From NCBI GenBank assembly GCA_019636735.1, contig JAHBWY010000004.1:62001-126000 (forward strand): 64,000 bases of DNA, read 5' to 3'. Position 1 is the first letter of the stretch, and every line of letters begins with the position of its first letter. Position numbers and translations under genes: made by a program. Below the pieces are notes generated by a model, which was given only the letters and a program-made list of their open reading frames with translations, was not told where the DNA came from and made no database searches. Shown here piece after piece: positions 24,150 through 26,714 of the stretch. Source of the DNA: Phycisphaeraceae bacterium (GTDB lineage: Bacteria; Planctomycetota; Phycisphaerae; Phycisphaerales; SM1A02).

Positions 24150-24183
24150 GGCCGCTCGGTTGAGCCACTCCGGGGGCAGTCGC

Positions 24184-24189
24184 TATCCT
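24184..24189 (+). promoter_or_regulatory. Candidate promoter of tandem alpha-CTD gene
   Basis: TATCCT in TATCCTCTCCC, with TTGAGC at 24160-24165 as a possible -35 (18-nt spacer). The transcript would carry a leader of about 75 nt to the ATG at 24270. Confidence 0.45.
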
Positions 24190-24269
24190 CTCCCGATTCG
24201 AGTTCGGCAGGTCCCGCGCGGGCGCCTCGACCCACGATGACCGCCGCCATGGCGAACCCAGGAGCACGC

Positions 24270-25202
24270 ATGAGTCAGCACGGTCTTGACACGGTCATCG
24301 GAACGAAGGCGGTTGCAGCGGACCCGCGAGCGGCGGCCGAGCACTTTGAGCGTGGTCTCACGCTCGAGGGCGATGGCCAGCGCTGGGATGCGATCGAGGA
24401 GTTCCGGCTTGCGGTTGAGAAGAACCGTTCGCCCGCGCATCTCTTCCGCCTCGCCTTCGTCGCGGACCTCCTGGGCTTCGACGACGAGGCGCTGCGCACC
24501 TACGAGGAGATCGCCACGCTTCCCGAGCCGCCGATCAACGCGCTCGTCAATCTCGCCATCCTCCTTGAAGACCGGGGCGACTTCGCACGAGCCGAGCGCC
24601 TGCTGCGCAAGGTGCTCGACACCGACCCCAATCATCCGCGTGCCCGCCTCTTCATCCGCGATGTGCAGGCCAGCAAGACGATGTACTACGACGAGGATCT
24701 GGCGCGCGACGCGGCGAAGCAGAACGCCATCCTCGATACGGCGATCGGCGACTTCGAGCTTTCCGTGCGCAGCCGCAATTGCCTCAAGAAGATGCAGATC
24801 CGGACGATCGGCGACCTCCTTCGCATCACCGAGGCGGAGCTGCTCTCCTACAAGAACTTCGGCGAGACCTCGCTGGTCGAGATTCGCAGCATGCTTGCGT
24901 CCAAGGGACTCCGACTGGGTCAGGCTCTCGATTCGGGCCACTACGCCCGCATCCGTCGCGAGGTGGCCGAGACGCTCAAGGGAACCGTGCCGGACACTGT
25001 GCTCAATCGGCCTGTCGGCAGCCTTGAGCTGAGCGTCCGGGCCCGCAAGGCGCTGCAACTCCTGAATGTCCAGACCCTCGGGGACCTCGCCAGCCGCACC
25101 GAGGCGGAACTCATGGGCATCAAGAACTTCGGGCAGACGAGCCTGGAGGAGATCAAGGCGCGACTCCAGGAGAGCGGTCTCCAGTTGCGGAGCCTCGAGT
25201 AG
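24270..25202 (+). CDS. TPR-like protein with two RNA-polymerase alpha-CTD-like domains
   Basis: A 310-residue protein. Residues about 20-130 are TPR-like helices (AAEHFERGLTLEGDGQRWDA, NLAILLEDRGDFARAERLLR). Two domains follow that match the RNA polymerase alpha C-terminal domain, at about 155-218 and 245-308. Against E. coli alphaCTD, the DNA-contact residue equivalent to R265 is kept in both (R167 in SVRSRN, R257 in SVRARK). So are N294, G296 and S299 (N196/G198/S201 in KNFGETS; N286/G288/S291 in KNFGQTS). N268 is kept only in the first; K298 is Thr in both. There is no alpha N-terminal domain. The ATG at 24270 has GGAG 5 nt upstream; ATG 24237 is an alternative. It may bind AT-rich upstream DNA or RNA polymerase partners while the TPR part binds another protein. 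That function is inference. Confidence 0.88.
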   Translation: MSQHGLDTVIGTKAVAADPRAAAEHFERGLTLEGDGQRWDAIEEFRLAVEKNRSPAHLFRLAFVADLLGFDDEALRTYEEIATLPEPPINALVNLAILLEDRGDFARAERLLRKVLDTDPNHPRARLFIRDVQASKTMYYDEDLARDAAKQNAILDTAIGDFELSVRSRNCLKKMQIRTIGDLLRITEAELLSYKNFGETSLVEIRSMLASKGLRLGQALDSGHYARIRREVAETLKGTVPDTVLNRPVGSLELSVRARKALQLLNVQTLGDLASRTEAELMGIKNFGQTSLEEIKARLQESGLQLRSLE

Positions 25203-25223
25203 TCCTGAGCCGATAGTGCTCTC

Positions 25224-26714
25224 ATGAAGGGCGCCATTCAAGCTGCACGCGGACATCGCCTCTTTGTGGCGGGTGTCGGTGCGCTCGCGCTGCTGGTGGT
25301 CATCACCGCGTGGATCGGACCGGCGGGTTGTCAGTCCGGCAATGACTCTTCGTCGGTGCGACGGCCCGACCGGCCGGCATCGCCGCTTGATGAAGCGGTC
25401 GATCTTCGCAGGCGCCCGGGCGAAGCCGAGGTAATGATGTCGGCGATCCCAGAGCTTCCGGAGGAGCGGCCTCTACCACCATCGAGCGAGCCCATGGTGC
25501 GCATTCGCGTGGCAGCGCTGCGCGGGCAGGCCGCGGAGTTGAGTGTGCCCGGCGGTGACTTCCTGGTCGGAGAGATCGACGCCTCCCCCGCATCGATGGA
25601 GCAGGTCTCGGCGCCCCTCGTTGTTCGCCACGATGGTCGCGGCTGGATTCTGCGCGAGGGCTCGGGGGCGCTCCACCGCGAGCGGCGCATTGATCATCAG
25701 CGGCCGCTCCAGGTGCGCGGCGTGACCACGGCGCGAGGGGGCTCGATCCAGACCACCGTGCCGATCTCGTATGCAGGTCAGCGCTGGCCCGGCGTGATGC
25801 GCCTTCACCCCCGCAGTGATGGCCAGGGCTTGGATCTGGTGGTGCTGGTCGAGATGGAGCGCTATCTGCCCGGCGTCATCGCGAAGGAGCTCTATCGAAA
25901 CTGGGGCCTCGAGACCTATCGCGCTCAGGCCATTGCGGCGCGAAGTTACGCCGTCGTCGAGGCGGCGCATTGGGCGCGGCGCCGCCACTTCGACATGGTC
26001 GCTGGCGAGGCGAGTCAGGCGTGGATTGGTGAAACTGACAATCCGACGGCGACGCGCGCCGTCTCGGACACGCGCGGCATGCTGCTCGTCTATGACGGTC
26101 GAGTCGTTCCTGCCTACTACTCGAGTTGCTGCGGCGGTCACGCGGCCGACGCCTTCGAAACCATCACACGAAATCCGAATCATGACATTCCTCCGCTGGC
26201 CCTGGGGCGGCAGCCGGCGGGTCGACGGCCGAACTGCTGCCGTCAGTCGCCCACTTGGACCTGGACTGAGCGCCTGCCCGCAGCGGAGGTGGCGCGCCGC
26301 CTCTCGGCATGGGGCGCCGAGGCGGGTCGCGCGGATCTCGGCTCGATCCGGGGCCTCTCGCAGATCTTCGTTTCTGGCGTGAATGCTGCGGGGCGAACCC
26401 AGGCGATCACGGTCATCGACAGCCGCGGCACGCGCGTCGAGATTCCAGCCGAGACCTTCAGGTTCGCCATCAACGGCGCGCCAGCCGATCCATCCCGCTC
26501 CACCTCGGGCGATGCCGCGCCGCGGCGAACGCTGAAGTCGAGCAATGTCGAAGTCGCGCTGGAAGGAGAGATGGTGCTCGTCGCAGGTCGCGGTCACGGT
26601 CATGGTGTCGGCATGTGCCAGTTCGGTGCCGAGGCGATGGCACGAGCGGGGCGCTCCTGGCGCGACATCCTGCTTCTCTACTATCCGGAAGCGGTGCCGA
26701 GCCGCTGCTGGTGA
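25224..26714 (+). CDS. SpoIID/LytB-domain protein, membrane anchored
   Basis: A 496-residue protein with an N-terminal hydrophobic segment (LFVAGVGALALLVVITAWIG) followed by GPAGC, either a lipobox or an uncleaved anchor. The SpoIID domain is clear: YLPGVIAKELYRNWGLETYR with the catalytic-region Glu, RAQAIAARSYAV, AYYSSCCGGHAADAF, and a C-terminal GHGHGVGMCQFGAEAMAR. SpoIID enzymes are lytic transglycosylases acting on glycan strands stripped of stem peptides. It lies 21 nt after the alpha-CTD protein gene. A role in cell-wall turnover is likely; sporulation is not implied. Confidence 0.92.
   Translation: MKGAIQAARGHRLFVAGVGALALLVVITAWIGPAGCQSGNDSSSVRRPDRPASPLDEAVDLRRRPGEAEVMMSAIPELPEERPLPPSSEPMVRIRVAALRGQAAELSVPGGDFLVGEIDASPASMEQVSAPLVVRHDGRGWILREGSGALHRERRIDHQRPLQVRGVTTARGGSIQTTVPISYAGQRWPGVMRLHPRSDGQGLDLVVLVEMERYLPGVIAKELYRNWGLETYRAQAIAARSYAVVEAAHWARRRHFDMVAGEASQAWIGETDNPTATRAVSDTRGMLLVYDGRVVPAYYSSCCGGHAADAFETITRNPNHDIPPLALGRQPAGRRPNCCRQSPTWTWTERLPAAEVARRLSAWGAEAGRADLGSIRGLSQIFVSGVNAAGRTQAITVIDSRGTRVEIPAETFRFAINGAPADPSRSTSGDAAPRRTLKSSNVEVALEGEMVLVAGRGHGHGVGMCQFGAEAMARAGRSWRDILLLYYPEAVPSRCW

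Follow-up and report, generated by a model that had tools for sequence, protein, structure and literature searches.

A near-universal TPR protein of Planctomycetota carries two RNA polymerase alpha-CTDs and may act in transcription

The frame at 24270-25202 (+) of the window (i.e., the whole stretch of 64,000 nucleotides that was analysed) encodes a 310-residue protein in which a TPR region is followed by two domains of the RNA polymerase alpha-CTD type. We found that this gene is near-universal and usually single-copy in Planctomycetota, and that its alpha-CTDs keep the residues with which the polymerase alpha subunit reads DNA. The protein may be a core transcription factor specific to this phylum.

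Gene and domain architecture

The start of the frame at 24270 is supported by a Shine-Dalgarno-like AGGAG, read directly from the sequence 5 nt upstream of the ATG (24260-24264, +), and by a similar N-terminal peptide, MS..xDxxIG, in three relatives (L005, L007, and L009). The frame, the Pfam and PDB sequence searches, and the relatives all point to a TPR / double alpha-CTD protein. The TPR region (residues ~20-138; 24327-24683, +) comprises about three TPR hairpins and a capping helix, on the basis of Pfam (TPR_2, E = 2e-9, 37.3 bits against a cut-off of 27, with TPR_14 and TPR_19 likewise above cut-off), the helices of the AlphaFold2 model, and the alignment. Both the profile scores and the helical hairpins of the model agree with the 34-residue helical hairpin repeats of TPR proteins, and the N-terminus is best matched in the PDB sequence search by engineered TPR proteins. 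The joint to the first alpha-CTD (residues 131-143; 24660-24698, +), with the pattern D...S..M.YDED, is conserved: in the alignment of 75 family proteins D131 is kept in 74, M138 in 62, and D141 and E142 in 65 each.

The two RNA_pol_A_CTD (PF03118) stretches lie C-terminal to the TPRs and score 140.4 bits against a cut-off of 23.8 (E = 1.4e-41), or 77.8 and 69.2 bits when each domain is taken singly. The first (CTD1, residues 150-217; 24717-24920, +), recognised from Pfam, PDB, structure, and alignments, is better conserved than any other part of the protein, and its nearest PDB sequence is the E. coli alpha-CTD (9e-15, gap-free alignment). The second (CTD2, residues 243-308; 24996-25193, +), recognised from Pfam, PDB, and alignments, is nearest to the B. 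subtilis alpha-CTD (about 3e-11 to 5e-11). The linker between them (24921-24995, +) is variable in the alignment, with 22-42 residues across the family and usually 24-29. Pfam gave no match to the alpha-NTD anywhere in the 310 residues, thus the protein cannot replace alpha in the core enzyme; NCBIfam rpoA models scored 130-144 bits, below their cut-offs of 228-302, which leaves it outside RpoA.

The initial annotation, made from the sequence before any search, had described a TPR protein with two alpha-CTDs and no alpha-NTD, and the Pfam and PDB sequence searches confirmed it. It had also claimed that both domains retain the equivalents of E. coli alpha R265, N294, G296, and S299. All of them were located: R265 corresponds to R167 in CTD1 (24768-24770, +) and R257 in CTD2 (25038-25040, +), N294 to N196 (24855-24857, +) and N286 (25125-25127, +), G296 to G198 and G288, and S299 to S201 and S291.

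An antisense ORF of 357 aa (24183-25256, -) and an ORF of 98 aa also recur across the relatives. We discarded both as genes, as the simplest reason for their recurrence is that they mirror conservation on the coding strand.

Predicted fold

The structure was modelled with AlphaFold2 from the single sequence, reaching a mean pLDDT of 69, with most CTD blocks at about 73-88 and low values at the N-terminus and in the linkers. The Foldseek matches of this model are not split between CTD1 and CTD2, and they leave the domain arrangement unreadable. They include the alpha-CTDs of B. subtilis (1z3e, TM to target 0.92, rmsd 1.1), of E. coli (8y5t, TM to target 0.91, rmsd 0.9; 1lb2, 0.91), and of Caulobacter on AT-rich DNA (9zum, TM to target 0.80-0.84), as well as alpha-CTD complexes with CAP and DNA (1lb2 and 3n4m). 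The initial annotation had considered that the helices could form a different HhH-type fold. The model, with TM to target values of 0.80-0.92 that speak to the fold only, supports a true alpha-CTD fold for the predicted domains rather than another HhH fold. At the sequence level, the generic HhH profile HHH_5 stays at 21.0 bits, under its cut-off of 27.

Distribution and copy number

Orthologues were counted at E <= 1e-20, so that rpoA matches are excluded from the tally. The gene is present in 277/294 Planctomycetota genomes, including all of the ~69 listed at a completeness of at least 95%; most of the 17 genomes lacking it are incomplete assemblies, and two of the 17 are listed at a completeness of at least 90%. 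Among named planctomycete records (Phycisphaerae, Pirellula, Kuenenia, Planctomycetaceae, and others), seven out of seven have the orthologue. Outside Planctomycetota the samples of four phyla gave 0/408 genomes (0/145 around Verrucomicrobium, 0/101 around Longilinea, 0/61 around Fimbriimonadaceae, and 0/101 around Pelotomaculum), and the positive control, run on a planctomycete sample with the identical query and cut-off, gave 23/25. The records of Verrucomicrobium, Akkermansia, Opitutaceae, Longilinea, Fimbriimonadaceae, and Pelotomaculum yielded rpoA or TPR matches only. The earlier remark that the domain combination is annotated in planctomycetes thus understated a gene that is near-universal and usually single-copy there.

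An apparent horizontal transfer to an “Alphaproteobacteria” MAG (L105/G307) was rejected: its phylum sample consists of genomes of the window's phylum, and the MAG is probably a misnamed planctomycete. This overlap, together with the presence of the gene in every named planctomycete tested, also indicates that the window's phylum is Planctomycetota.

Copy number was surveyed with the PF03118 profile on 59 genomes at least 97% complete. Most of them hold three such domains (rpoA, CTD1, and CTD2), and the whole source genome holds exactly these three. A full-length rpoA is present as a separate gene in the source genome (G000:C4:395464-396465, also at L001:730-1734) and in all the 59 genomes searched. 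Only two PF03118 domains were found in four genomes of family f48 and in one of f93. Within f48, a degenerate-looking CTD2 next to an intact CTD1 was observed in five genomes (G258 at locus L211, G088, G195, G239, and G275), four of which have two PF03118 domains; in G258 the CTD2 is devoid of the usual contact motif. CTD2 degeneration, as read from these sequences, likely explains the two-domain count in f48.

Comparison with rpoA and residue conservation

Across 16 genomes used to compare the two proteins, the mean pairwise identity was 70% for CTD1, 59% for CTD2, and 49% for the TPR region, with 63% for the rpoA NTD and 61% for the rpoA CTD. The identity of CTD1 was higher than that of the rpoA CTD in 105/120 pairs, which are not independent of each other. 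By this sequence measure, CTD1 evolves more slowly than the rpoA CTD of the same organisms.

Residue conservation was counted over the 75 family proteins using E. coli alpha numbering. The minor-groove contact residues are kept nearly throughout, R265 in 74 (CTD1) and 75 (CTD2) and N294 in 74 and 72, followed by G296 (75 and 72), S299 (72 and 70), and E302 (75 and 74). CTD1 also keeps N268 in 70 and C269 in 67 proteins, and in CTD2 position 268 is mostly K or R. The pattern supports the idea that the DNA-contact residues of the CTDs are under strong purifying selection. In the closed complex at E. coli rrnBP1, the two alpha-CTDs form a side-by-side, head-to-tail dimer; each inserts R265 and N294 into the minor groove, with K291 and K298 contacting phosphates (PMC7822876). 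These two lysines are replaced in CTD1, by S/A and T, respectively, and given their loss the DNA affinity of the protein may be weak.

The polymerase itself differs among planctomycete classes. N294 is replaced by S or A in 18/18 sampled rpoA of the window's class (including the source genome; rpoA in L035-L051) and kept in 12/12 sampled rpoA from the other classes. In the window's class, therefore, only the TPR / double-CTD protein keeps the full contact set. Tentatively, we consider it possible, if rather improbable, that the protein is an extra general transcription factor of Planctomycetota, found in none of the other sampled phyla, to which the upstream-DNA reading of the polymerase alpha-CTDs has passed in part or entirely, most clearly where rpoA has lost N294.

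Not all of the constraint points to DNA. An R occupies position 267 in 72/75 CTD1 and 65/75 CTD2 domains, but in none of 30 planctomycete rpoA, in none of six rpoA CTDs from the verrucomicrobial samples, and not in E. coli. As a helical wheel places this nearly invariant residue off the DNA face, part of the constraint would come from something besides DNA, and R267 may mark a protein contact specific to the family. In E. coli alpha, the acids at 259/261 contact sigma region 4. CTD1 retains this acidic surface (D259 is D in 70 and E in 5; E261 is E in 66 and D in 8), and its evolution is slow throughout, beyond the DNA contacts. Both features would suit a decoy or regulator whose CTDs bind the partners of the alpha-CTD (sigma region 4, activators, NusA), passing them to the polymerase or keeping them from it. 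A TPR-class chaperone (PMC10977090), SicA of Salmonella, has indeed been reported to bind the RNAP alpha subunit, with InvF (PMC10761746). We find such a role doubtful, since the DNA-contact residues are among the best-kept positions of both domains, and a decoy acting on proteins alone would have no use for R265, N294, and G296 in both.

Gene neighbourhood and origin

A spoIID-family gene (25224-26714, +; Pfam SpoIID, E = 3.5e-18) lies immediately downstream. Over 41 loci, ruvA is found downstream in 16 and spoIID in 15, mostly as the next gene; the loci with adjacent ruvA come from about a dozen families, often with a gap of 5-60 nt and on the same strand. The locus L213 has the order TPR-CTD - ruvC - ruvA - ruvB, and together with L210 it gives the fuller order TPR-CTD - (ruvC) - ruvA - ruvB - queH - spoIID - tgt - yajC - secD, in which the neighbours up to yajC were assigned by Pfam and secD by position and sequence only. 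Gene order thus indicates an ancestral locus adjoining ruvC-ruvA-ruvB-queH-spoIID-tgt-yajC-secD, of which spoIID is the sole remnant beside the gene in the window, where ruv genes are absent. With repair, tRNA modification, and secretion genes side by side, the cluster speaks for an old locus inherited vertically more than for any function.

The frequent adjacency of ruvA, itself an HhH protein, could be taken to mean that the gene encodes an adaptor for DNA repair or recombination, with the TPRs binding a repair protein and the CTDs serving as HhH-type non-specific DNA grips beside the Holliday-junction machinery of RuvABC. We judge this unlikely. RuvA and other HhH proteins do share an HhH-type DNA-binding hairpin with the CTDs, and RuvA is an ancestral gene neighbour, but the sequence is alpha-CTD-specific (140 bits for PF03118 against 21, sub-cut-off, for HHH_5), as are the fold and the residues, including the D259/E261 acids. 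Moreover, adjacency says little in a cluster that also includes queH, tgt, yajC, and secD, and the window has spoIID only.

In a FastTree phylogeny on 59 aligned columns, CTD1 formed one clade (support 0.71), CTD2 another (0.79), and the two a joint clade (0.97) apart from rpoA. The tree indicates that the domain was captured once and duplicated in tandem once, in each case ahead of the radiation of the phylum, with supports that are modest on such short sequences. That the gene is a chance product or a decayed rpoA duplicate with no function of its own deserves practically no credence: such duplicates exist in principle and nothing was found in favour of one here, whereas near-universal presence in the phylum, a single origin, and a CTD1 better conserved than the rpoA CTD all stand against it.

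Members outside the window's order are mostly about 430-460 aa long, with more N-terminal TPRs, which are absent in the window's order. Some relatives have very long frames (up to 958 aa), and the fused domains that these suggested were dismissed, as by eye the additional parts look like non-coding high-GC upstream extensions. An origin from mobile elements was also rejected: the plasmid and phage collections yielded rpoA-like matches only, none covering 80% of the query. One partial match to the protein was found in a viral contig collection.

Proposed function and known systems

We propose, with confidence evenly divided for and against, that the protein is a core transcription factor specific to Planctomycetota, in which a TPR scaffold carries a pair of alpha-CTDs detached from the polymerase. 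The two linked CTDs would grip the minor groove of AT-rich DNA, in UP-element-like or other upstream sequences, as the alpha-CTD pair of the polymerase does, and CTD1 may also contact sigma region 4 through its conserved acids at 259/261. The TPRs would hold another protein, and the factor would thereby link this partner to promoters or to the polymerase. Of the roles put forward in the initial annotation, namely competition for UP elements, bridging of DNA to polymerase partners, and recruitment of another factor through the TPRs, any may apply.

Coherently with this proposal, the domains match alpha-CTDs in sequence and structure, DNA-bound ones included (9zum, 1lb2, and 3n4m), the contact residues are kept in both CTDs across the 75 proteins, and the presence of two CTDs in one chain recalls the side-by-side dimer at rrnBP1. 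The higher identity of CTD1 relative to the rpoA CTD, the presence in nearly all genomes with usually three PF03118 domains each, and the loss of N294 in 18 of the 30 sampled rpoA, all in the window's class, argue in the same direction. Against it stand the replacement of K291 and K298 in CTD1, the degenerate CTD2 in part of f48, by which two working CTDs would not always be needed, and the conserved neighbours (ruvCAB, queH, tgt, and secD), which are non-transcription genes. The near-invariant R267, which would lie off the DNA face, and a single-sequence model that is silent on domain arrangement also count against the proposal.

The closest known domain is the RpoA alpha-CTD (PF03118), which shares the fold, about 40-54% identity, R265/N294/G296/S299/E302, and the 259/261 acids. 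The differences lie in the tandem CTDs on a TPR scaffold without alpha-NTD, in R267 in both domains, and in the replaced K291 and K298. SicA/InvF offers another TPR-class protein cooperating with the alpha subunit in transcription activation, although as separate proteins where here TPR and alpha-CTD are in one chain. BREX PglW and the PRK07758 hypothetical proteins also carry an alpha-CTD-like domain outside rpoA, but they have other architectures, and their NCBIfam scores are far under cut-off (40 of 990 and 45 of 115 bits, respectively).

The component parts are already known; for their combination, the open-licence PMC literature gave no experiment and no functional or comparative description, and an earlier note may exist elsewhere. 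The main text of the P. limnophila essential-gene paper (PMC10632474) mentions no TPR protein. The retention of a single-copy protein by nearly the whole phylum, with a domain better conserved than that of the polymerase, suggests that some basic step in gene expression is different in Planctomycetota. The protein offers a way into promoter recognition in these bacteria, whose cell biology is unusual, as well as a marker gene for the phylum. It is also a natural case of an alpha-CTD detached from the polymerase, in which DNA and sigma contacts could be tested in isolation.

Additional frames with alpha-CTD matches

Four or five PF03118 domains were counted in five genomes of f71, f80, and f30, and a further small frame (109-155 aa) occurs in no fewer than three of these genomes. 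Small extra alpha-CTD frames, apart from rpoA and the TPR protein, were observed in f71 and f80 (G274:C138:42643-42834, G205:C14:61784-61975, and G167:C1:4088706-4088888). In the Verrucomicrobium phylum sample, the CTD region weakly matched a 1221-aa frame (G374:C8:71425-72114) at two sites that overlap (E about 1e-8); this frame may encode an alpha-CTD or HhH protein that is unrelated.
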